A DNA stretch of 48,472 nt, from IMG/VR virus record IMGVR_UViG_3300015263_000384, positions 1 through 48,472 of that record, one strand, 5' to 3'. The DNA is from a virus. Below, one piece after another: positions 8,195 through 38,694 of the stretch. The notes beneath the pieces were generated by a model, which had not been told where the DNA came from, did no database searches, and saw only the letters and a program-made list of their open reading frames with translations. Both the position numbers and the translations under genes were made by a program. Numbering within the stretch: position 1 is the stretch's first letter; each line of letters starts with the position of its first letter.

Positions 8195-9100
8195 TTAGGT
8201 CGCGTTAGAACCGATCCAACCGCGCTGATCGTAGAAGTAAACAAGGAACCGCTGACGAGAAGCATAGTAAGCGGTACGAGTGGAATCCTCAAACCAGTCA
8301 GAGAATTGGGGTTTAACCTTCCAAAGGAAGTGTGCATCGTGAATCATGGTATCACGAGCAAACCAATCCTTACCAGTTTGATCCTTATAGTGCGACATCG
8401 TATAGCCAAGCTGCCTCTTACGCCGCGTAGCGTTGACATTACGATTCGCGGTGAACGGCTCATTCTCATTCTGTGTGAGCTGAATAGCCATCCACTCATT
8501 TGCAATGTTGATAATCAAATGGTCAATCCGAACAGGAATAGGATCGCCACGATGGTCAACAGTTTGCTCTCCTAACTCAAACGCAGCCTGCAATCCGGCA
8601 ACACCAAGCTGAGGATTACCAGAAATTTGATTCGACCACGTATTAGCAGAAGATAAAAGAGTATGAGCAGTAGAGCACAGAGCCTCAGACGCATAACCAG
8701 TAAAAGATGTACCAGTAAATGCATCATCTAAGAAATCTGCAACTGCATACTCTTGAGCGAGCCTAGTAGAACGACCAAGCCACTTAGCAGATTGATTGGC
8801 CTTGTTATAAAGATCGTCCTCCATCATTTCCTTCGTCACACCGAAGCCCAGACCATACTGCGTGTCAGTCTTCGTGATCTTAGCAGAAATCTCTGCATCA
8901 ACAAACGTATAGCTCTCACCTTCACCAAGTACCACCTGGCGAGGAAGACCACTAAGCGTCGTCATTTCAATTTCTGCACGATCCATAGTACCAGTTCTGA
9001 GGATCTTAGAATACTCCTCCTCAAAACTATTATATGAATCCCTGAAATCCCTCCGTAAGCCAGGACGCAGGAGGGCGTTAAATGCGCCACGAGTGTGCAT
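8195..9100 (-). CDS. Major capsid protein (HK97-type fold)
   Basis: Encodes 301 residues with the strongest ribosome site of the arm (AAAGGAGG, spacing 7). The N-terminal arm reads FNALLRPGLRRDF, then SYNSFEEEYSKIL. It is followed by a spine helix (LGFGVTKEMMEDDLYN, WLGRSTRLAQEYAVADFLDD) and a central region with P-domain-like strands (IRIDH... style: PVRIDHLIINIANEWMAIQ). The order scaffold, decoration protein, capsid protein, adaptor supports the call. The N-terminal arm shares a striking motif with the small early protein at 31176-31388. The family most resembles Mu gpT-like heads, but this is a visual judgement. Confidence 0.8.
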   Translation of the reverse strand: MHTRGAFNALLRPGLRRDFRDSYNSFEEEYSKILRTGTMDRAEIEMTTLSGLPRQVVLGEGESYTFVDAEISAKITKTDTQYGLGFGVTKEMMEDDLYNKANQSAKWLGRSTRLAQEYAVADFLDDAFTGTSFTGYASEALCSTAHTLLSSANTWSNQISGNPQLGVAGLQAAFELGEQTVDHRGDPIPVRIDHLIINIANEWMAIQLTQNENEPFTANRNVNATRRKRQLGYTMSHYKDQTGKDWFARDTMIHDAHFLWKVKPQFSDWFEDSTRTAYYASRQRFLVYFYDQRGWIGSNAT

Positions 9101-9610: not shown

Positions 9611-10150
9611 TTAAAGTTCAACAACAGGAACAGTCCAAGCGGACGTTTCCATTTGAGCACGCTTGGGTTCAGATTGACGACGCCTACGTTCAACCCTTTC
9701 AAGCTTTACTAACTTGTTCGCAATGTAGACTTCCTCTGGCATAATCATGAGGATAGTGTCTCCCATATGAACCTTTGTATCTGCTGCGCCAGTCAGCGTT
9801 TTCTTGGAAGCTTTCTCATCATGAAATACTTCCCAGCCAAGGGCCTGAGCACGAGATACCTCTAATTCAGTATCTAACTTAAACTCACCGACGTAACCCT
9901 TGGGAACTAATTTCAAGAGACGCTCAATTCCATCAAGAACAGGTCCTCTTGAAAGAACTTCAACAGACTTAGCCTTTGCTTCCCTAATACGTTCAAGCTT
10001 ATCCGCAACTTCTTGATCAGAAAACTTAGCTGCATCAATACCAAACTTGAGTAAAAACTTACGACCAGCTTCAATCTGATTTCCAGCATAAGCAGGAAGT
10101 TGTTCATCATCTTCTAACAAATTCATCTTATCGAGGCCGAAGATAGACAT
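9611..10150 (-). CDS. Structural-module protein of unknown function
   Basis: Encodes 179 residues. The N-terminal half is helical (NQIEAGRKFLLKFGID, EVADKLERIREAKAKSVEVL). The C-terminal half contains WEVFHDEKA, then MGDTILMIMPEEVYIANK and a very basic segment VERRRRQSEPKRAQ. The ATG overlaps the stop of the scaffold gene by one base (TAATG), suggesting coupled translation and a role in head assembly. Similar proteins are common between scaffold and capsid genes of podoviruses, but their function is not established. Confidence 0.65.
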   Translation of the reverse strand: MSIFGLDKMNLLEDDEQLPAYAGNQIEAGRKFLLKFGIDAAKFSDQEVADKLERIREAKAKSVEVLSRGPVLDGIERLLKLVPKGYVGEFKLDTELEVSRAQALGWEVFHDEKASKKTLTGAADTKVHMGDTILMIMPEEVYIANKLVKLERVERRRRQSEPKRAQMETSAWTVPVVEL

Positions 10151-10989
10151 TATTGCTTCACTCCGATGTCAGAAGATGTAACGTCTTCCTCATTGATATC
10201 AAGCCAATCGAGATATTCTTTCTCTGACTTAAAGCCTTGCATCCTCATTACCGTACGCTCAGATTCAGTAAGTTGTCTAATGGGCTTATTACCAGTTTGT
10301 CCAGCACTAATTGGCTGCCTAGAAGCAGGGTGTTGAGGAGGAGCAGGCCGACCTGAGCTATTAGCAGGAGCAGCAGGAGGAGTTTCCATACCAAGTGAAT
10401 CCTTTGCATCAAGATAAAGTAACCTAATAGTTCCTGCCGTCGGGTCCTTAATACCTCTTTGATCTAACTGCGTTTGAATGTAATCCTTATAAGTATCAAG
10501 GTCAGCATAACGTTCTCTAACAGCCTGCCAAGCTTGAGCTTCACGAGTCTTAGCTAAGTCTTCCCTAAACGGTGAAATAATTTCTTGCATATCTCTGGTT
10601 AGTCTATTAGCAATTCTCTCCTCCATCTGCTTGAGAGCCTTACCAGGTTCTGCAAAAAATGTAGTAGCATCAATATCTGGGTCAGGAGCAGGAGGAGCTT
10701 CTACAACAGGAGGACCTCTCCTAGCTGCATCATTTAAAGCTCTTCCTTGTTCCCTAACAGTCGCCTCCAATGCACGAAGCTTTAAAGCAGCTTCTTGTGG
10801 AGACAAACCTTCCAATCCAGCAATACCAGCAAACGGAGATTCAGTACCCGTAGGCGAATGGTTCTGCTGTTGGTCCGTCGTCTGCTCTTGGTCCGTGTCT
10901 AGTGTTTGCTGATCTCCTCCGCCTGACGAAGCTAGATCGTCCTCTCTGTCCTGGAATACCATCCAGGGAAACATCTTCCGGCTGTTCAT
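10150..10989 (-). CDS. Capsid scaffolding protein
   Basis: Encodes 279 residues. The ATG at 10989 is preceded by AGAGGAAG. The low-complexity N-terminus is rich in Asp/Gln (DQQTLDTDQEQTTDQQQ), then come a long charged helix (EAALKLRALEATVREQG), a Pro-rich linker (PPVVEAPPAPDPDID), further coiled-coil (LKQMEERIANRLTRDMQ) and a second Pro-rich stretch. The mostly helical, acidic, Pro-linked composition between portal and capsid genes is characteristic of phage scaffolds, which template the procapsid and then leave. The first 149 bases overlap the preceding small gene in another frame. Confidence 0.75.
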   Translation of the reverse strand: MNSRKMFPWMVFQDREDDLASSGGGDQQTLDTDQEQTTDQQQNHSPTGTESPFAGIAGLEGLSPQEAALKLRALEATVREQGRALNDAARRGPPVVEAPPAPDPDIDATTFFAEPGKALKQMEERIANRLTRDMQEIISPFREDLAKTREAQAWQAVRERYADLDTYKDYIQTQLDQRGIKDPTAGTIRLLYLDAKDSLGMETPPAAPANSSGRPAPPQHPASRQPISAGQTGNKPIRQLTESERTVMRMQGFKSEKEYLDWLDINEEDVTSSDIGVKQ

Positions 10990-11266
10990 TGTTTTCTTCC
11001 TCTCGACTAGAGATTTGGTGTAATGTGTCTAGAGCTTTTCTAAAGCCCTTTCCCTCATTTACTCGCGCAAGAGCTTCCTCTCCAGTTTTGGAATTCTCTT
11101 GATCTGCGAGTAAACCTGCATACTGCTCTTCTAAGAGCAATAATACAATCTTCCAACCTTGTGACTTAATAGTCTTCCTTAATTCTTGACTATCATTGAG
11201 TTCCAGGTCCGAGAGCAGGTCGTGGAGCGGGGAGTGTTCCAGCATTTCCACCGTTCTGGGGTCCAT
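10841..11266 (-). CDS. Small protein overlapping portal and scaffold genes
   Basis: Encodes 141 residues with a good ribosome site (GGTGGAG, spacing 9). The first 95 residues look like a normal helical acidic protein (LLSDLELNDSQELRKTI, KIVLLLLEEQYAGLLAD, LDTLHQISSREEENNEQ). The final 45 residues are Arg/Gly-rich (SSFVRRRRSANTRHGPR) and lie wholly within the scaffold gene in another frame. Its start overlaps the portal end by 74 bases. The chain of overlaps suggests tight coupling of portal, this protein and scaffold. Function unknown; a portal or scaffold cofactor is a guess. Confidence 0.6.
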   Translation of the reverse strand: MDPRTVEMLEHSPLHDLLSDLELNDSQELRKTIKSQGWKIVLLLLEEQYAGLLADQENSKTGEEALARVNEGKGFRKALDTLHQISSREEENNEQPEDVSLDGIPGQRGRSSFVRRRRSANTRHGPRADDGPTAEPFAYGY

Positions 11267-13130
11267 TTTGTGTTACTCCACCTGTTAAAGTATATTGCTC
11301 TGCGTCTGGAATAGCAAAAGTCTCAGCAAGCTTAACCAATACAGCATCCGAAGTAATCAACGCCCTTTGCGCAATTTGAGCCAAGATTGTCGGATCACCA
11401 GTCATTTGAGCAAAGACTTGAGCAAATTGTGCAGCTTGCTGATAGTAATTTGTAAGAACTTGGAACAACGTAAGCCACTGTCTCTGCTCAACTTCACGGT
11501 TCGTGATAGAATCAGTAACGGTTAGTGTAATCAAAGCTCCATGTCGAATTAGTTTAGAAGGCATCTGTAACACCTTCTCCACCTCAACTCCATCATCACC
11601 AACAACTAACCAATGTAATTGTTGATCTCCAAAGAACTGCATATTAGCTATAATATCATAACCAACTAAGCTTCCAAATCTCTTTACATTTTTGAGAACA
11701 AGGTCAAATCGCTTGTTCCCCTCTGCCAATCGCGAGAGATCAGAAGTTGCAGTTCCAGGTGTTCCTTCTTGTGGCAATCCAAGGATAGCTTCATTAGCCC
11801 CCGATCTTTTCTCATAATATCGTACAATGCTTTCTTCATTATTGTAACTTGAGGGATACACTTCGGAAAGCTTGAATTCTTTAATGTCAGTCTGGACATT
11901 ATCCACGAACCACATCTTGCCAGGAAAGAGGGGCTCTCCATCCCCATAGCCTAAGCCCTTCCTAATGACAATTTGTGCCATGTTAGCCAACGTCGCGTTA
12001 TCCAAACGCTGGCGGTGAATAGTAGTTGCCTCTTCTTGGAATTGCTCAGTCTGCTTACAAATACCAATACCAGCCCAAATACCTTCAACAGGAATGTAAT
12101 TGCAAAGTCGATAAGGACGATGAAGGTCGTCGTACCAATTGTAGCGAATAGAAAGAAATGAACCGGAATCCTTATGATAGTCAACGACAATCTCTTCGTC
12201 CCAACCATCGCCATCAACATCAAAAGACAAATAAAGCTCATGAACTTTAAATACAGAAGTCCACTTTGGTTCTGCATTCGCGTGTTCTTCAATCTTTTCT
12301 TGTGCTTCGTTTACATCATTAAAATTACTAGGTTGATTCTTAAGTGTCCATTGATGTTTAATTGCTTCAATAGCCTTTCCACTCATCCGACCAGACTGAG
12401 CCATTCTTTTGAGCTGTGCCCAAGTAAATTCATGAACTTCCCCAACCATAGGTGCAAGCTGAGGATCAGTCTCATTGAAACGCATAATGAAGTTTCCAAG
12501 AGGCACACGCTCAATGGTAGCTCCATTCTTTATTACAGCATAAATCTCTTCCTCTGCATCCCCTACTTTCTTCAAGCCTTTCTTAATAATTTTCTCATAA
12601 CCAGTCTTACCTACTGCTGTACCTAGCTTACAAAACTCCATAAGCCATTCATTATAAAACTCATACATCTTTAACCCATCAGGAGATTCAATCCTTGCTT
12701 GTAAGTACTCCTCGAAGGGTTTATTTACAGCACTCCACTCCTTTGAAGTCGGCCTAATACTATAAAAAGGCTCAACAGCAAAGAGGGTATTCATAAACCT
12801 AGCCTGAATAGCCTCTACAGCAATAGCAGCGAGAGGAATAACTACATTAGCAGCTCGCTTAAACGGGAAATTCCGCTCTTTCTTGGCAGGAGCTGCCCAA
12901 TAGAGGGTTTGAAAACGCTTCCAATCCTCCATCATAGGCTGACGCTCTGTATAGAACGCCTCTAACTCCTCATCAAGCCATGTCCTTAAATTATTTTGGA
13001 CATCTTCATCCAGCAAAATCATCCTAGGCCAATTACCTTGGGTATTTGCGTCTGTACTTGGCTTTACTCCACCATCTACAGGAGCTTCCCCACGATATGC
13101 TGGATCTTGATAGAGTGCAAGAGATGACAT
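11193..13130 (-). CDS. Portal protein
   Basis: Encodes 645 residues. Portal-like features are an N-terminal acidic helix (LRTWLDEELEAFYTERQPMMEDW), an aromatic FPFKRAANVVIPLAAIAVEAIQAR segment that resembles the wing of podovirus portals, and a C-terminal barrel rich in Gln/Ala (LTNYYQQAAQFAQVFAQM). The size, and the position between TerL and scaffold, fit a dodecameric portal. The C-terminus ends in a Gly/Pro-rich tail. No nucleotide-binding motif is present. The family (T7-like versus P22-like) cannot be settled by eye. Confidence 0.8.
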   Translation of the reverse strand: MSSLALYQDPAYRGEAPVDGGVKPSTDANTQGNWPRMILLDEDVQNNLRTWLDEELEAFYTERQPMMEDWKRFQTLYWAAPAKKERNFPFKRAANVVIPLAAIAVEAIQARFMNTLFAVEPFYSIRPTSKEWSAVNKPFEEYLQARIESPDGLKMYEFYNEWLMEFCKLGTAVGKTGYEKIIKKGLKKVGDAEEEIYAVIKNGATIERVPLGNFIMRFNETDPQLAPMVGEVHEFTWAQLKRMAQSGRMSGKAIEAIKHQWTLKNQPSNFNDVNEAQEKIEEHANAEPKWTSVFKVHELYLSFDVDGDGWDEEIVVDYHKDSGSFLSIRYNWYDDLHRPYRLCNYIPVEGIWAGIGICKQTEQFQEEATTIHRQRLDNATLANMAQIVIRKGLGYGDGEPLFPGKMWFVDNVQTDIKEFKLSEVYPSSYNNEESIVRYYEKRSGANEAILGLPQEGTPGTATSDLSRLAEGNKRFDLVLKNVKRFGSLVGYDIIANMQFFGDQQLHWLVVGDDGVEVEKVLQMPSKLIRHGALITLTVTDSITNREVEQRQWLTLFQVLTNYYQQAAQFAQVFAQMTGDPTILAQIAQRALITSDAVLVKLAETFAIPDAEQYTLTGGVTQNGPQNGGNAGTLPAPRPALGPGTQ

Positions 13131-22821: not shown

Positions 22822-22911
22822 AAATACTACCTCCCTCAAAGGTTAGTAGAGAAATGTGACTCTTCCTCTGCTATTTACGGTTGTAGGGGACTGACTTTGA
22901 GGGAGGTATTT
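22822..22911 (+). ncRNA. Long stem-loop leader directly 5' of tRNA-His
   Basis: CCTCCCTCAAAG (22830-22841) is exactly complementary to CTTTGAGGGAGG (22895-22906). AAATA (22822-22826) extends the stem with TATTT (22907-22911) across a three-base bulge. The 53-base interior contains a further stem TAGTAGAG / CTCTGCTA. The right arm abuts the first base of the tRNA. A similar layout precedes tRNA-Leu. Possible roles are processing, transcript protection or an independent RNA; none is proven. Confidence 0.55.
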
Positions 22912-22982
22912 AGGCGAGTGGTCTAAATGGTTAAGACGCTTGGTTGTGGCCCAAGAAATTGCGGTTCGATTCCGCGCCGCCT
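22912..22982 (+). tRNA. tRNA-His (GTG anticodon), degenerate acceptor stem
   Basis: The cloverleaf has D stem GTCT/AGAC, anticodon stem CTTGG/CCAAG around TTGTGGC (anticodon 22946-22948), and T arm TGCGG-TTCGATT-CCGCG. The acceptor pairs AGGCG with CGCCT, but the inner two pairs mismatch. CCA is not encoded, and the usual extra 5' G of tRNA-His is not apparent. It may be functional after processing, or decaying. Anticodon identity is clear from the loop. Confidence 0.7.
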
Positions 22983-23018
22983 GATTTTTGTCCCATCCTA
23001 AACGAAGGAGTTAGAATT

Positions 23019-27466: not shown

Positions 27467-27550
27467 GCCAGAGTGGTGGAATCGGCAGACACTAGAGACT
27501 TAAAATCTCTTGAGCTAACGCTCGTCCGGGTTCGAGTCCCGGCTCTGGCA
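27467..27550 (+). tRNA. tRNA-Leu (TAA anticodon)
   Basis: Acceptor GCCAGAG/CTCTGGC is perfect. The anticodon stem AGAGA/TCTCT surrounds CTTAAAA with anticodon TAA at 27501-27503. A long variable arm (GAGCTAACGCTC) marks a class II tRNA. The T arm is CCGGG-TTCGAGT-CCCGG. CCA is not encoded. It would decode UUA/UUG, common codons in this AT-leaning genome. Confidence 0.95.
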
Positions 27551-30413: not shown

Positions 30414-30995
30414 ATGGGCTACAACATCAGTAAGAATTCGGTCCTAAGAGAAAAGAGTCTTCTCGATGATCTTCTTGAATTCAAAAAGACAGTAGAAATC
30501 CCTTCTGCTAATCCCAGAAAGAGGGTATCTAAAATCTGGGAAGCTCTCAAGAGTGCAGACGCACTACAAAAGAGACACCCAGAATTCGAGAAGTATGCGG
30601 GTCTGCGTTATAACTACCGCTTTCGACAAATTCGTACTGGTGTTTTGTGCGAGTGGGTTGGTGAAGAATCAGCTTCTCCTATTGAAAGTGGAATTAGCAT
30701 GAAGCAATCGGTAGTTACGCCGACCCGAATGGACATACCAGAAGCACGTTCTCTAGTAGACGTAATAGCTTCCGCAATGCGTTTCGCAGACGCTCCTGAA
30801 TTAAGATTTCCAAACGCCGTTCTACGTAGAGCAGACATGATTAAGCTCTACAACTGGACGACGGAAACAGAAGTAAAGTGGACCTTCATTCCTCATGATG
30901 ATGCAGGTCTAACACTTACCACCCGAGAAGTACCGGAGGAAATACTATGGAAACCACAGGAGGAGAACGATGGCGAAGAAAGGACCAAAGTTTAA
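30414..30995 (+). CDS. Early protein of unknown function
   Basis: Encodes 193 residues. Helical first half (SLLDDLLEFKKTVE, RKRVSKIWEALKSADALQ). The second half has strands (TEVKWTFIPHDDAGLTLTTR) and an acidic end. It overlaps the next gene by 26 bases. Its size and place before the recombination genes suggest a DNA-metabolism link, but no motif is evident. Confidence 0.6.
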   Translation: MGYNISKNSVLREKSLLDDLLEFKKTVEIPSANPRKRVSKIWEALKSADALQKRHPEFEKYAGLRYNYRFRQIRTGVLCEWVGEESASPIESGISMKQSVVTPTRMDIPEARSLVDVIASAMRFADAPELRFPNAVLRRADMIKLYNWTTETEVKWTFIPHDDAGLTLTTREVPEEILWKPQEENDGEERTKV

Positions 30996-31179
30996 GAGAA
31001 CAAACGTTGAGATTAATGAAGAACACTTAAAGAGATTCAAAGAGTTGTTCCCGCAAAATGGTGCACTTAAGTGGTTTCTTAACGGATGTTTTGCAGAATT
31101 CTTCGTGCGATACGAGTATGATGTGGATAAAGACATTCGTGAATCCGTTGAAGCAGCAATTGGAAGGATGAAGGGATGA
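30970..31179 (+). CDS. Small protein with 'ELFPxNGAxxWFLN' motif
   Basis: Encodes 69 residues. The basic start KKGPKFKRTNVEINEEH is followed by FKELFPQNGALKWFLNGCF and a helical tail. Proteins with LFP-x-x-GA-x-x-W are, from memory, common small phage proteins of unknown role; a ribbon-helix-helix-like regulator is conceivable. ATGA overlap with the next gene. Confidence 0.55.
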   Translation: MAKKGPKFKRTNVEINEEHLKRFKELFPQNGALKWFLNGCFAEFFVRYEYDVDKDIRESVEAAIGRMKG

Positions 31180-31388
31180 ATAGACGAGGATTTCTTGCAG
31201 CGTTAGCAGTATTGCCGTTTGTACCGGATAAGTTGAAGTTGCTGGAGCCTCAAGTCTTAATGCCAACAAAGCATTTTAAGACAAACATTATAACAGGCAC
31301 TGTGTCCGGAAGATTTACCGATCTACTTCGTCCAGGTTTGGAAGACGCATGGTACGCGCAGTATAAGTCCTTTGGAAAGGAGTGGTAG
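31176..31388 (+). CDS. Small early protein with Tat-like N-terminus and a capsid-arm-like C-terminus
   Basis: Encodes 70 residues. The N-terminus NRRGFLAALAVLPFVP looks like a short twin-arginine or membrane signal. The C-terminus FTDLLRPGLEDAWYAQYKSF, then GKEW, closely parallels the N-terminal arm of the major capsid protein (FNALLRPGLRRDFRDSYNSF, then EEEY): F-x-x-LLRPGL, an aromatic three residues on, Y, SF and E coincide. Placement is in the early arm, far from head genes. A capsid mimic that tunes assembly, or a domain borrowed from the capsid gene, are the ideas; neither is tested. Confidence 0.65.
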   Translation: MNRRGFLAALAVLPFVPDKLKLLEPQVLMPTKHFKTNIITGTVSGRFTDLLRPGLEDAWYAQYKSFGKEW

Positions 31389-31391
31389 TTC

Positions 31392-32444
31392 ATGGGCAAC
31401 CAAAAGATCAACCTAGCAGTCTGGCAACCTAAAATGCCAGTCTATCCGCCCGAAGATGTTTTAGACAATTCCACGATCTCCGAATACGGTGCGTGTCCTC
31501 GTAAAGGATTCTACCGCTACGGAATGCGTCGAGGATTCGATGGAAAGTCTTGGGCAATTCAATTCGGATTGGCCTATCACAAATATCGGGAGGAAGTCGA
31601 AGATAGAATGAAGGAAGCAGGAGTACGCGAGTTGACAGATGATATTCATATCGCATCCATCGACGCTGCGTTAGAAGGATGGGAAGATCCACCGATGGAG
31701 GATAAAAAGGCTTATCTAGATCGGTTGAGATTCTATCATACTTGCGAACAAGCGAAGAAAAGAATTAGGGAGGAGATTAAGGATGGCTCGTTGGAAGTTG
31801 TTAGGTCTGAGGATTCCTTTGATCTTGAACTTCCGTTTTGGGTTTGTCGGGACTGCGGTTTTGCAGAGTTGGAACAAGATAGAGATTTAGGGGATTGTTG
31901 TGGAAACTGTGCTAGTGATAATGTCTTCCGCGCCCGACACGGCGGACGGATCGACCAATTCATCAAAGACATCGCCCGAAAGGGCGTAGACATGGTGAAG
32001 GATTTCAAGACAACCTCCTACAAACCTCATAACTACGAAGATAAATTCGATCCCTCAAACCAATTCTTCGGCTACACTTGGGCACGTGCTGAATTAAGCG
32101 GGCAAAAGTGCGACGGAGCAATTATCGAAACAGTACATAACACAAAGACAATTGGCCCCGCACATTCTCAACACTATGTTTCTTACAGCGAAGGACAAAT
32201 AGAAGCATGGACTGTTGAGCAAATGACAGAACGCCAGATAATTATGACAATGTGGTCTAGGCTTCCAGAGCTAGGTTATCTAGCATTCCCTAAGCGTACT
32301 CAAGAATGTTCTTCTTGGGGAGGCTGTCCATTTAGAGGCGCCTGTCGTGGAGGATCGGCGTTTGAAATTGAAGCATGGCTTGAAGCACGTACTATCGAAA
32401 GTCATTGGGACTTTACCGACCCTAACGAGGAGGCTGGATTATGA
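31392..32444 (+). CDS. Cas4/RecB-like PD-(D/E)XK exonuclease with Fe-S cluster and inserted zinc ribbon
   Basis: Encodes 350 residues. C35 (YGACPRKGFY) together with C306, C312 and C318 (ECSSWGGCPFRGAC) form the usual four-Cys iron-sulphur set. Nuclease residues are H63 (LAYHKYREE), D188 (GGRIDQF) and D204-x-K206 (VKDFKTTS). Between them lies an extra CxxC...C-CxxC ribbon (CRDCG and CCGNC, about residues 152-173). It precedes the Sak4-like ATPase, so it probably resects DNA ends for single-strand annealing recombination. It starts after AGGAG. Related to, but not part of, any CRISPR locus here. Confidence 0.8.
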   Translation: MGNQKINLAVWQPKMPVYPPEDVLDNSTISEYGACPRKGFYRYGMRRGFDGKSWAIQFGLAYHKYREEVEDRMKEAGVRELTDDIHIASIDAALEGWEDPPMEDKKAYLDRLRFYHTCEQAKKRIREEIKDGSLEVVRSEDSFDLELPFWVCRDCGFAELEQDRDLGDCCGNCASDNVFRARHGGRIDQFIKDIARKGVDMVKDFKTTSYKPHNYEDKFDPSNQFFGYTWARAELSGQKCDGAIIETVHNTKTIGPAHSQHYVSYSEGQIEAWTVEQMTERQIIMTMWSRLPELGYLAFPKRTQECSSWGGCPFRGACRGGSAFEIEAWLEARTIESHWDFTDPNEEAGL

Positions 32445-34948: not shown

Positions 34949-34961
34949 TAATTAAGGCTTT

Positions 34962-35032
34962 GCCCCGTAGTTCAATTGGTAGAACAGTTGACTTTGGATC
35001 AACAGGTTCCCGGTTCGAGTCCGGGCGGGGCT
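34962..35032 (+). tRNA. tRNA-Gln (TTG anticodon)
   Basis: Acceptor GCCCCGT pairs with GCGGGGC with one wobble. The anticodon stem GTTGA/TCAAC surrounds CTTTGGA with anticodon TTG at 34994-34996. The T arm is CCCGG-TTCGAGT-CCGGG. CCA is not encoded. The 3' end directly abuts the next gene, and it has no long upstream stem. Confidence 0.95.
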
Positions 35033-35034
35033 GT

Positions 35035-35319
35035 ATGACATTCATTGCAAGAGGTTTATTCGTTGCTATTTGGTCTTGGGGAAAGGTAGAAGTAAAAAAG
35101 CCTACCCCTCCACCCATAGAAGAAGTGTATAAAGTCGTAAATAAGTATTCAGAAAAGCTTTCAGGCGTTTACCCAATTTATCCAGGAAAGATGTGGTTCT
35201 GTGAAGCTAATAAAACATTTCTTATCGAGGATATACAAGACGCTAGAAGAAAAGTTAAAATAACAGAAGAGTCATTAGATGATTTTATTCGAAGCCGTTT
35301 ACCTGGGAGATTTATGTAA
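35035..35319 (+). CDS. Small protein whose start abuts tRNA-Gln
   Basis: Encodes 94 residues from ATG 35035, two bases after the tRNA. The longer open frame back to 34960 would be the tRNA itself and is rejected. The only ribosome site available is GGGG in the tRNA acceptor 3' strand. There is an N-terminal hydrophobic segment (FIARGLFVAIWSW), then VKKPTPPPIEEVYKVV and a charged helical end. Its stop overlaps the GroES-like start. Function unknown. Confidence 0.55.
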   Translation: MTFIARGLFVAIWSWGKVEVKKPTPPPIEEVYKVVNKYSEKLSGVYPIYPGKMWFCEANKTFLIEDIQDARRKVKITEESLDDFIRSRLPGRFM

Positions 35320-35762
35320 TGCCAACAACCCTGTTCCCTAAGAAATCCGACGTAATCATCCATCCCCTCAAAGCTCCAGAGAAAACCGCAGGAGGATTGT
35401 ATAAGTCAAAATACCACGAGAAGAAAGTAGCCCAAGGTATTATTGTAGCAGTCGGGTCGGAAGCAGCAGAGAAAGGTTTTGAAACGGCTCAACACGTAGT
35501 ATTCAACCCCTACTCAGGCGATGAAGTAGCCGTAGAAGATGGGGGTTGGTTTTTTGTTATCCATTGGGATTTCGTCGAAGCCATTCTTATTAACTCAGAC
35601 GTAAGGTTGATCTCAACGGATAGCGTCAAGCGCATAATCGAAGAGAGAATCGGTGAGTTAAAGCTACGTAAAACCCAACCTACTCTCGATGAGATCGAAG
35701 CATCTTTGAACGAACGTATTGATTCCTATGTTGTCTCCGAAGGCTTTCAATGGGGGTTCTAA
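35319..35762 (+). CDS. GroES-like co-chaperonin (Cpn10 fold)
   Basis: Encodes 147 residues. The Cpn10 features are SDVIIHPLKAPEKTAGGLY (first strands and the mobile-loop entry), QGIIVAVGSEAAEKGF, VVFNPYSGDEVAVEDGGWFFV and the last strand WDFVEAIL. A C-terminal extension of about 50 residues (LKLRKTQPTLDEIEASLN and beyond) exceeds a normal GroES. It would pair with host GroEL to fold phage proteins such as the capsid protein, as T4 gp31 does. No GroEL gene is present in the window. Confidence 0.75.
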   Translation: MPTTLFPKKSDVIIHPLKAPEKTAGGLYKSKYHEKKVAQGIIVAVGSEAAEKGFETAQHVVFNPYSGDEVAVEDGGWFFVIHWDFVEAILINSDVRLISTDSVKRIIEERIGELKLRKTQPTLDEIEASLNERIDSYVVSEGFQWGF

Positions 35763-35965: not shown

Positions 35966-36184
35966 ATGATGAGAGTAGGAGTAATAGCGGGTACCCATCA
36001 GGAGTACGAAGATTGGGAAAGCAAAACAATACAATATAATGATGTTGTTTTCCATGAAATTAACAGTATACAAGATGTACTTGGTATTGAGTTAAATTTT
36101 CTTTTATATGTAGGTACTTGCCTTTATCGTAAAGATTTTATGGAATTAGACGCGCTTGCTCAATCGAGACTCCGCCATGCCTAA
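35966..36184 (+). CDS. Small protein of unknown function
   Basis: Encodes 72 residues from ATG 35966 (AAGGGG upstream, spacing 8). It begins MMRVGVIAGTHQEYEDW, a strand-turn-helix start, and contains LNFLLYVGTCLYRKDF. The end overlaps the UDG-exonuclease start by eight bases. A small alpha/beta fold, unknown. Confidence 0.5.
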   Translation: MMRVGVIAGTHQEYEDWESKTIQYNDVVFHEINSIQDVLGIELNFLLYVGTCLYRKDFMELDALAQSRLRHA

Positions 36185-37301
36185 AATCGGAACCCAAAGA
36201 GTAGGATACGAAGGCCCTGAAAAAGATTACGACATCCTAATCGTAGGCGAAGCTCCCGGTGGAGAAGAAGTAGGACAAGGCCGCCCATTTGTAGGAAAGT
36301 CTGGCGAATTACTAGAACGCTACTTAGCCCGCGCAGGGAAGCGTAGGGGTGAAGTGCGTTTAGCCAATCTTTGCCAATACCGACCAGACGAAAATAAATT
36401 CCACAACCTCTTGGGCTCTCCTCAGCTCGAAGAAGGATTAGCCGAGCTACGAGAAGAGATCGCCCGTGCCAAACCAAACTTAATACTTGGCTTAGGAAAC
36501 TGGCCTCTCTATTATCTCACAGGAAATTGCTCAACTGAGGAGAGAGGAAAGAAAACTACAAAGAAACCTGGAAGTGGAATTAGCCTGTACAGAGGATCAC
36601 GTTTGCCATGTCTTCCTGAGTATGGAGGAGGAAAGTTCTTCGCGACTTTCCACCCTAGCTTTGTCGAAAGAGTGTGGACAGTCAACCCGATCTTTCATTT
36701 AGACATCACTAGAGCAGTAGAAGATTCTACCTGTCCAGAGCTTCGCTATCCAGAATACGATGAATTTATCGACCCTGACCATAGCGATGCAGAGGAGTTA
36801 ATGCGTGAAGCTCTCGATGCTCCTTGGATATCGTTAGATATTGAGAATTTTCCGAATCATACATTTTCAACAGTTGGTTGGTCTTGGCAACTCGACGGTC
36901 GGGATCGTGCAGTAACTACTACGTTCAAAGCTCCTCATCTATGGCACTTCTCCAAGAAGATATGGGAATCGTCAACTCCAAAGATCTATCAATTTGCTAC
37001 CCACGACATACCTTTTATGCGCCGCTTCTATGGTTGGCAACCAGGAGGATATTACGATGGAGTTGGTTGGGACACTTATGTGGCATCGGCTTCGATATAT
37101 CCTGATTATCCCCGTGGTCTTGATTTTCTTGCTAGTGTTTACACAAGATTTCCTTACTATAAGACTGATAGGAAAGTCTGGAAAGAAGCCGGGGACATGA
37201 CCATCTTGTGGAAGTACAACATTAAAGATGTCGTCGCGACGATGCACGTTGCACTTGGGCAAATGGAAGATATGAGGGGGTTATATGCAAGGGCAGCATA
37301 A
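36177..37301 (+). CDS. Uracil-DNA glycosylase fused to a DnaQ-like 3'-5' exonuclease
   Basis: Encodes 374 residues from ATG 36177 (a TTG seven codons earlier is possible). The UDG part (about residues 15-175) has GEAPGGEEVGQGRPFVG, the motif of family 4-type enzymes, and TFHPSFV as the later His motif. The family 4 iron-sulphur Cys set is not complete. The second part has ISLDIENF (DxE, D221/E223), HDIPF (exo II) and YNIKD (exo III, D351), the DEDDy proofreading domain of family A polymerases. The polymerase domain lies in the next gene, overlapping by 17 bases. It probably removes uracil and proofreads. Confidence 0.8.
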   Translation: MPKIGTQRVGYEGPEKDYDILIVGEAPGGEEVGQGRPFVGKSGELLERYLARAGKRRGEVRLANLCQYRPDENKFHNLLGSPQLEEGLAELREEIARAKPNLILGLGNWPLYYLTGNCSTEERGKKTTKKPGSGISLYRGSRLPCLPEYGGGKFFATFHPSFVERVWTVNPIFHLDITRAVEDSTCPELRYPEYDEFIDPDHSDAEELMREALDAPWISLDIENFPNHTFSTVGWSWQLDGRDRAVTTTFKAPHLWHFSKKIWESSTPKIYQFATHDIPFMRRFYGWQPGGYYDGVGWDTYVASASIYPDYPRGLDFLASVYTRFPYYKTDRKVWKEAGDMTILWKYNIKDVVATMHVALGQMEDMRGLYARAA

Positions 37302-38694
37302 AGTCCCCTCCTTCGCAACTCCCTTCGAGTTCGATATGCTAATGCTCGAACCTGTCCATCATATGATGTTCACGGGCATACGCATAGACCAAAAGAAGAA
37401 GAAGGAAAATCAAGACGCTGCAATTGAAGAATGGAAGAAGAACCAAGAATTACTAGACCAAATCACAGGTTACCAAAACTTCAATGCAGAAGGCAAGAAG
37501 ATCGTACCTGATTATCTCTACAATGAATTAGGTCTTAACAAAAAGACAAAGAAAAACAAGATAACAGCCGATGAAGCAGCTATCAGGACAATCATGGCGG
37601 AGTGTAAAGGTAAGATTAACAACCTCAAGACGCTCCAAGCCAAAGAGAAGTATATGCGAGGATACCTCGCTTGTTTGCAAATCCTTCGTGTTAGAGGAAT
37701 CAGAAAGCGAATTTCATCTTACCTTGGAATGCAGATTAAGAAAGGCACACTTGCCGGTGAGGTACCGCTAGAGGATGAGGACGGTAGAATACGCGGTACG
37801 ATTTCGGTCGGCGGAACAGAGACAGGAAGATTCTCACACTCCAAAACTCTATGGGATACAGGAGTTAACTTAGCTACAATCCCAAGAAAGCTCCGTTCAA
37901 TGTTCATCGCAGATGATGGATATGAATTAGCTGAGTTAGACTTAAACCGTGGAGAGTCTTGGGTCTACGCACATCTTAGTCAAGATCCTGAGCTTTTACG
38001 TATTCACTTAGACGGCTTAGATTTCCACGCAGAAACGGCAGCGACAATTTCTAGCGCATTTGGAGAGAAAGACCTAAGCGTTGATTGGATTATTGAACAC
38101 AAAGATGATGAAGCCTACAAGATCCGTTACTTAGCTAAGAGAGTAAATCACGCATCATCTTACCGAATGAAGGCATTCAAGGGAGCAGAGAGTGTTAACA
38201 AAGAAGCCGACGAGACAGGAATCGTTGTCTCCGTCTCTGAGTTCAATGCCGCTAGAAAGCTTTGGCTTGAACGGTATGAGTATGTTCCAAATGTCTGGTG
38301 GCCGAGTATTGAATCAGAGTTGGACCGTACAAGGACAATGGTTACTCCTTACGGGAGAGTTCATCAGTTCCACGACCGTTGGGGGGAAGAGTTATTTAAG
38401 GCTGCCACCGCGTACGTTCCACAGTCTACATCAGTTGATTACCTCAATCGAGGTTTCCTAAAAGTCTACCACCAATTCGTAAAGCCTGGAGCATGGGGCT
38501 TAAAGATTCTTGCACAAACTCATGATAGCTTACTTATCCAGTATAAGCTAGGCTGTCGCGACGAATGCTTAAACGAGGTAGCTCGTGCCATGACAAGCAC
38601 TTTGGTTATAAATGATCGTGAGTTTAGTATCCCCGTTGAACCTCAATACGGTCAGTCTTGGGGAAGTACAAAGACATTCAAGCTTTCTGCCTAA
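37285..38694 (+). CDS. Family A DNA polymerase, polymerase domain only
   Basis: Encodes 469 residues with GGGGG upstream. Thumb-like helices precede TETGRFSH (about 178-185). Motif A is ELDLNRGES with D219. Motif B is RYLAKRVNHASSYRM, with Lys285 and Tyr293 in the expected places. Motif C is QTHDSLLI with D414. Motif C has Ser where Glu is usual, and motif A has an Asn-Arg-Gly-Glu variant of the SQIE element. It has no exonuclease domain of its own; that is supplied by the gene upstream. It replicates the phage genome. Confidence 0.85.
   Translation: MQGQHKVPSFATPFEFDMLMLEPVHHMMFTGIRIDQKKKKENQDAAIEEWKKNQELLDQITGYQNFNAEGKKIVPDYLYNELGLNKKTKKNKITADEAAIRTIMAECKGKINNLKTLQAKEKYMRGYLACLQILRVRGIRKRISSYLGMQIKKGTLAGEVPLEDEDGRIRGTISVGGTETGRFSHSKTLWDTGVNLATIPRKLRSMFIADDGYELAELDLNRGESWVYAHLSQDPELLRIHLDGLDFHAETAATISSAFGEKDLSVDWIIEHKDDEAYKIRYLAKRVNHASSYRMKAFKGAESVNKEADETGIVVSVSEFNAARKLWLERYEYVPNVWWPSIESELDRTRTMVTPYGRVHQFHDRWGEELFKAATAYVPQSTSVDYLNRGFLKVYHQFVKPGAWGLKILAQTHDSLLIQYKLGCRDECLNEVARAMTSTLVINDREFSIPVEPQYGQSWGSTKTFKLSA

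Follow-up and report, generated by a model that had tools for sequence, protein, structure and literature searches.

The DNA analyzed here, a complete IMG/VR record of 48,472 nucleotides (hereafter the window), belongs to a tailed phage. Structural genes occupy mostly the minus strand at 1-20 kb and 41-48 kb of the window, and replication and recombination genes the plus strand at 21-41 kb. Within this replication arm lies the gene for a 70-residue protein, P0001 (MNRRGFLAALAVLPFVPDKLKLLEPQVLMPTKHFKTNIITGTVSGRFTDLLRPGLEDAWYAQYKSFGKEW), labeled early from gene position alone, in which a leader and a linker precede a C-terminal segment resembling the N-terminal arm of the phage's major capsid protein (MCP; Table 1). 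The start of the P0001 gene overlaps the stop of a preceding small gene (30970-31179; ATGA), and three bases separate its stop from the next gene, which encodes a PD-(D/E)XK nuclease and is followed by a gene for a Sak4-like annealing protein. Three tRNA genes are found in the early arm (Gln TTG, 34960-35034; Leu TAA, 27467-27550; His GTG, 22910-22985). A GroES-like co-chaperonin is also encoded in the replication arm, and in other phages with this MCP family its gene lies beside the portal/scaffold genes.

Table 1. Positions of the early gene, its segments and the related features in the window.
Feature	Position	Strand	Description
P0001 gene	31176-31388	+	70-aa early protein: RRxFL leader, linker, C-terminal copy of the MCP arm
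Twin-arginine-like leader	31176-31223	+	P0001 residues 1-16 (MNRRGFLAALAVLPFV)
Copy of the MCP arm	31314-31385	+	P0001 residues 47-70 (FTDLLRPGLEDAWYAQYKSFGKEW)
PD-(D/E)XK nuclease	31392-32444	+	Pfam PDDEXK_1 1.7e-8; conserved neighbor, locus marker in relatives
MCP (P0002)	8195-9100	-	Pfam Phage_capsid_4 E=3.6e-7, Mu gpT 9e-4; PHROG 371
MCP N-terminal arm	9011-9082	-	Residues 7-30; predicted helix 7-25
Candidate scaffolding protein	10150-10989	-	Proposed arm partner; putative, from position between portal and MCP and from composition
Portal motif LFPGKMWFVDN	11898-11930	-	In portal protein 11193-13130 (PHROG 1216 E=1e-18)
Second early ORF, with portal motif IYPGKMWF	35035-35319	+	PGKMWF at 35182-35199
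GroES-like co-chaperonin gene	35319-35762		Replication arm of the window

An early protein ending in a capsid-arm-like segment

P0001 could not be convincingly assigned to any family in Pfam, PHROG, NCBIfam or PADLOC. Its structural model is poor (pLDDT 49), with residues 47-63 predicted as a helix at low confidence. Near the N-terminus it carries the motif RRxF[LIV] (NRRGFLA), and the leader contains an 11-residue hydrophobic stretch with a mean hydropathy of 2.65, which is only 1.44 over 19 residues. We searched six frames of the window, of the related records G021 and L111, and of parts of G029 and G031 for starts of the form M-x(0-4)-RRxF[LIVMF]; only the ORFs of P0001 and of P0003, its G021 counterpart (SRRKFLT), begin in this way. 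Against the twin-arginine model TIGR01409 (cut-off 16.7 bits), P0003 scored 14.3 bits and P0001 gave no match. The leader alone suggests that P0001 may be held at the membrane; true Tat export would place the arm in the wrong compartment and would thus contradict a role in assembly.

The MCP, whose N-terminus reads MHTRGAFNALLRPGLRRDFRDSYNSFEEEY, has no close solved structure by sequence and is HK97-like by fold. An AlphaFold model (22 relatives, pLDDT 74) predicts an HK97 fold whose first helix comprises residues 7-25, the very segment that P0001 copies. Folds near this model include the procapsid protein of JBD30 (TM 0.57) and the SaPIbov5 Ccm procapsid entry 7rwz. In the Mu-like phage JBD30, residues 6-25 of the N-arm are helical in the procapsid and unfold upon maturation (PMC11445458). 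The N-arm helix is bound by the scaffolding protein in SPP1 (PMC6813328) and P22 (PMC9965877), and in 80alpha a scaffold helix contacts it (PMC5644958). The candidate scaffolding protein of the window had no PHROG match.

The first-pass annotation had read the C-terminus of P0001 as a copy of the MCP arm, and the comparison bears this out: the last 24 residues align with MCP residues 7-30 at 11/24 identical positions, ungapped throughout and including the identical LLRPGL, as it had described. The shared residues are the conserved ones of the MCP family, in which most of 14 arms contain L-x-P-G-x8-Y, and P0001 likewise follows the arm pattern [hydrophobic]-x-P-G-[LIVM]-x7-Y-x5-E-[YWFH] or a close variant of it. 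Run in six frames over roughly 0.4 Mb of DNA from related phages, the arm regular expression matched only MCP starts and P0001. The HK97-fold body, about 270 residues following the arm in the MCP, is absent from P0001. Because the chain stops after the arm and has no Pfam capsid match, P0001 is not itself an MCP.

Within the window, none of the 2016 protein pairs outscores the P0001-MCP pair (BLOSUM62 score of 55, ungapped), with which an unrelated-looking pair, the portal and ORF 34960, is tied. This score was reached by 1/300 shuffles of P0001 against the whole proteome and by 0/300 against the MCP. A profile of distant MCP arms, from which the close subfamily was left out, ranked P0001 fourth in the window (E=3.6) and did not single it out. 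Given this tie and the failure of the distant profile to find P0001, the window alone leaves room for chance.

Recurrence in related phages

Direct searches with P0001 failed, and the relative G021 was therefore found through the MCP subfamily. In tblastn against phages, P0001 gave nothing useful (one weak match to an SNF2 gene, E=0.4); against IMG/VR the match was limited to the leader of a Tat-like but otherwise unrelated ORF in contig L001, and against genome contigs it had no useful match. The MCP alignment likewise had no match in the genome contigs. A DNA pattern for an arm ending in EW plus stop matched IMG/VR five times, each time out of frame. Against phages, tblastn with P0003 and with the subfamily arm found no match, and with the other arm type it found only an antisense stretch in Gordonia phages (E 0.1-4). 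A match in L106 was rejected as two weak pieces, probably in a non-coding frame. The small L001 ORF (L001:10001-10285) begins with a nearly identical twin-arginine-like start (MNRRGFLAGLAALPLV), contains no capsid arm, and is followed immediately by a portal-like gene; the contig is that of an unrelated phage.

G021 is a 50.5-kb IMG/VR record with a 72% identical MCP and an orthologous early region, including an orthologue of the nuclease (E=3e-113, 51%) and a polymerase 59% identical to that of the window. The polymerase is apparently split into an ORF with uracil-DNA-glycosylase-like and exonuclease-like sequence (36156-37301) and an overlapping family A polymerase ORF (37285-38694), an arrangement common to the window, G021 and L111. 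Between the G021 orthologues of window genes 30036 and 30414, and preceded by a clear Shine-Dalgarno sequence (GGGGAGG), sits the gene for P0003, an 81-residue protein (MLSRRKFLTLVRNRVAAGVLCSALLAERLYVQPITDLLDDPAYDKLGEVTRDTFHELLKPGLRNAFMEIYKDFPERVNYVS) with the arm FHELLKPGLRNAFMEIYKDF. P0001 and P0003 are 26% identical overall, and the RRxFL leader and the arm are their only common features. Their arms have YK-x-F and an alanine in common that are missing from the MCP arms of the subfamily. Homologues lacking the motif had been named in the first-pass annotation as evidence against a capsid-arm copy; the sole recognizable homologue, P0003, keeps both arm and leader. Over 24 positions, P0001 is identical to its own MCP arm at 11 and to the other at 10, and P0003 at 11 and 11. 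These counts show no co-variation with the cognate MCP arm, in a test with almost no power because the two MCP arms are themselves identical at 21/24. Beside P0003, a G021 gene on the minus strand (L086:14338-14541) starts with MLVRSAFNKIW and contains ESFREEYKKLEG, both arm-like with an insertion between them; as a candidate split second arm copy it scored at chance and was rejected.

With a profile built from MCP arms only, P0001 ranked behind none but the MCP itself in the window (E=4e-4; next match 0.41), as did P0003 in G021 (E=1.8e-4). When 1.57 Mb of phage DNA was translated in all six frames, giving 1.7 million residues, the two best non-MCP matches of the MCP-arm profile were P0003 (17.6 bits) and P0001 (16.8 bits), both in the same arm register, against decoy maxima of 9.3 bits (reversed) and 9.4 bits (5x shuffled). 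With a close-subfamily profile, P0003 reached 17.8, P0001 15.9 and a third ORF 15.2 bits; the next match had 8.6 and decoys scored up to 10.0. A distant-only profile returned P0003 as the best non-MCP match at 10.4 bits, barely above decoys at 9.2, and did not recover P0001, so the copy appears specific to its own MCP subfamily. An unbiased comparison set 709 early-region ORFs against 283 late ORFs. For each of the ORFs from the window, G021 and G029, the best-scoring target was the N-terminus of the MCP, at raw scores of a size that also arises from low-complexity reading frames.

G029 is a more distant phage (MCP about 33%; nuclease E=2.6e-15, 27%). About 1 kb upstream of its nuclease gene lies an early ORF (...KKSIYPGKIFFVDDKEETVIVKGAFNKLLQPGLKEQ...), the third-best match (L089:4862-5452), in which VKGAFNKLLQPGLK corresponds to the MCP arm over its first half only; this ORF has no twin-arginine-like leader. 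The architecture of an early arm copy behind such a leader recurs in G021, and in the third phage, G029, the arm-like stretch alone is found. In L111, a close relative, the 15.7-kb fragment is gap-free from the SNF2 gene to the polymerase, and its genes are 35-60% identical to those of the window (nuclease 53%); it has no P0001-type ORF, and the gene is therefore accessory and not essential to the lineage. Profile searches of the other records examined, several of which are fragments without the early region, also found no P0001-type ORF.

Codons differ at most identical residues of the copies (6/11 in the window, 8/11 in G021 and 6/8 in G029), which are therefore not recent DNA copies; the likeness is held, or was arrived at, in the protein sequence. 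These codon differences, together with a DNA identity of 49% over the arm plus flank, led us to reject a recent duplication of the gene.

A portal motif in early reading frames

The portal protein contains a motif that is conserved in eight close portals (FPGKMWFVDD) and is matched by IYPGKIFFVDD in the G029 early ORF. Outside portals, (F/Y)PGK(M/I)(W/F)F occurred in the sequence examined only in this ORF and in a second early ORF of the window (35035-35319), the same gene whose pairing with the portal tied for the best score. A profile of the portal motif gave 15.7-21.3 bits for the two ORFs against decoy maxima of 12.7-13.3 bits; the window ORF scored 18.8 or 15.7 bits against maxima of 13.3 or 12.7. 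A longer version of the latter (34960-35319) overlaps the tRNA-Gln gene, so the real start lies at 35035 or downstream. The G029 ORF and the portal-motif matches are suggestive. In P22, the tryptophan belt of the portal was shown not to mediate scaffold binding (PMC9320234), and a scaffold role for the portal motif would be a guess.

Candidate roles and comparison with known systems

The likeness between the P0001-type arm and the MCP arm is solid for the window and G021 pair, and we regard it as real because two related viruses carry the same kind of copy. By analogy with the phages in whose literature the element's role is described, the P0001 arm would be a copy of a known head-assembly interaction element, and it probably serves head building. 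We infer that it has been kept for its protein sequence, and beyond the carriage of the arm by P0001 we infer every step of the mechanism. P0001 would bind the immature-head partner of the MCP arm, for which the hook at the C-terminus of the scaffolding protein is the likeliest candidate, and would occupy or gather scaffold before capsid protein becomes abundant. The portal, with its motif copied in the neighboring early ORF and in the G029 ORF, may be gathered too. In P22, scaffold binds portal and coat and forms a nucleation complex (PMC12005531), so that the two copied motifs could share scaffold as their target. The onset of head assembly would then be delayed, seeded or placed, and the leader could keep P0001 at the inner membrane.

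We tentatively favor the reading that P0001 binds the partner of the MCP arm, likeliest the scaffold, and so delays, seeds or places head assembly, at somewhat short of an even chance. We hold as rather doubtful the broader proposal of self-encoded mimicry, in which early copies of head-protein elements on a membrane-type leader would hold the scaffold or initiator and time or place assembly. In the open-access literature, we found no phage in which an early gene carries a copy of that phage's own capsid arm. Control of premature head assembly and of the initiator site is known for few phages, and a self-encoded copy of the scaffold-contacting capsid helix would provide a defined peptide for testing the control of assembly start. 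Comparing a structural-segment profile with early ORFs of the same lineage is an approach that can be repeated on other phages.

The early position and patchy presence of the P0001 gene would also fit an anti-defense decoy, an early peptide that occupies a host sensor of the capsid arm (and portal) before structural proteins appear. The copying of two head proteins is what one would expect if something were watching head proteins, and a decoy of this kind would imply that a host sensor recognizes capsid arms. We know of no sensor of the MCP N-arm, and the early proteins have no PADLOC match. Sensing of capsid protein is known among bacterial immunity proteins, and CapRel-SJ46 uses one domain for an MCP and an unrelated small phage protein (PMC9712102, PMC11578894); however, CapRel was modeled onto the P-domain of the MCP and not its N-arm. 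On this evidence we consider a decoy unlikely.

The early peptide might instead poison the head assembly of a co-infecting relative. The G029 stretches are no less similar to the window subfamily (PGKMWF, GAFNxLLRPGL) than to G029's own proteins (AGRCFF, GAFSNLLAPGY), as such a weapon would predict, and the early copies do not tightly match the cognate MCP arm. Yet these differences in similarity are small, and the copies in the window and G021 match their own MCP equally well, which would put the phage's own assembly at risk unless timed; we think this quite unlikely.

Two further explanations are improbable. If one chaperone or protease (host GroEL acting with the GroES-like protein of the phage, or a prohead protease) served both the MCP arm and the early protein, the short helix of the MCP arm would be of a kind that such factors could bind, and the GroES-like protein is indeed encoded in the same arm of the genome. 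However, no link was found between that gene and the capsid arm, and a chaperone site needs no L-x-P-G-x8-Y, a pattern that is family-wide in one MCP family and nearly absent elsewhere. If an unrelated small gene had long ago picked up a partial duplicate of the MCP gene's 5' end, the resulting decaying fragment without function would account for the absence of the gene in L111, the differing operon positions in the window and G021, and the half-length copy in G029. Against this, the copy recurs in two phages with most codons changed and residues kept, and leader and arm have both been retained while the linker diverged, which argues for selection.

Chance resemblance, to which the tied pair score and the blind distant profile (E=3.6) would point, is largely refuted and highly improbable, given that the architecture is repeated in G021, that scores exceed those of decoys by 7 bits and that three genomes converge on the same MCP segment.

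Among known systems, the N-arm helix of SPP1, P22, JBD30 and 80alpha is the same structural unit as the C-terminal copy in P0001; in those phages it lies within the capsid protein, whereas here it forms the C-terminus of an unrelated early protein of 70-81 residues. SaPIbov5 Ccm, which redirects capsid size, is comparable as a head-size protein supplied by a small mobile element. Ccm is itself capsid-protein-like over its whole chain, whereas P0001 has the arm helix only and no HK97 body. T4 gp40 is a membrane factor for portal assembly and would be an analogue should P0001 act at the membrane as an initiator of heads; to our knowledge, it has no sequence relation to P0001 and no capsid-arm copy has been described in it. 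The second CapRel trigger, the small protein Gp54 of phage Bas11, shares with an MCP its binding domain on the host sensor (PMC11578894); unlike P0001, Gp54 has no sequence similarity to the MCP. The nearest mechanism is that of SaPI1 CpmB, a satellite-encoded internal scaffold that carries the capsid-binding RIIK motif of the helper phage scaffold and competes at the scaffold-capsid interface (PMC5644958). Like P0001, CpmB is a small non-structural protein with a copied head-assembly interaction motif; it is a satellite product that mimics the scaffold side, whereas P0001 copies the capsid side, is encoded by the phage in its own replication arm and, unlike CpmB, begins with a twin-arginine-like leader.
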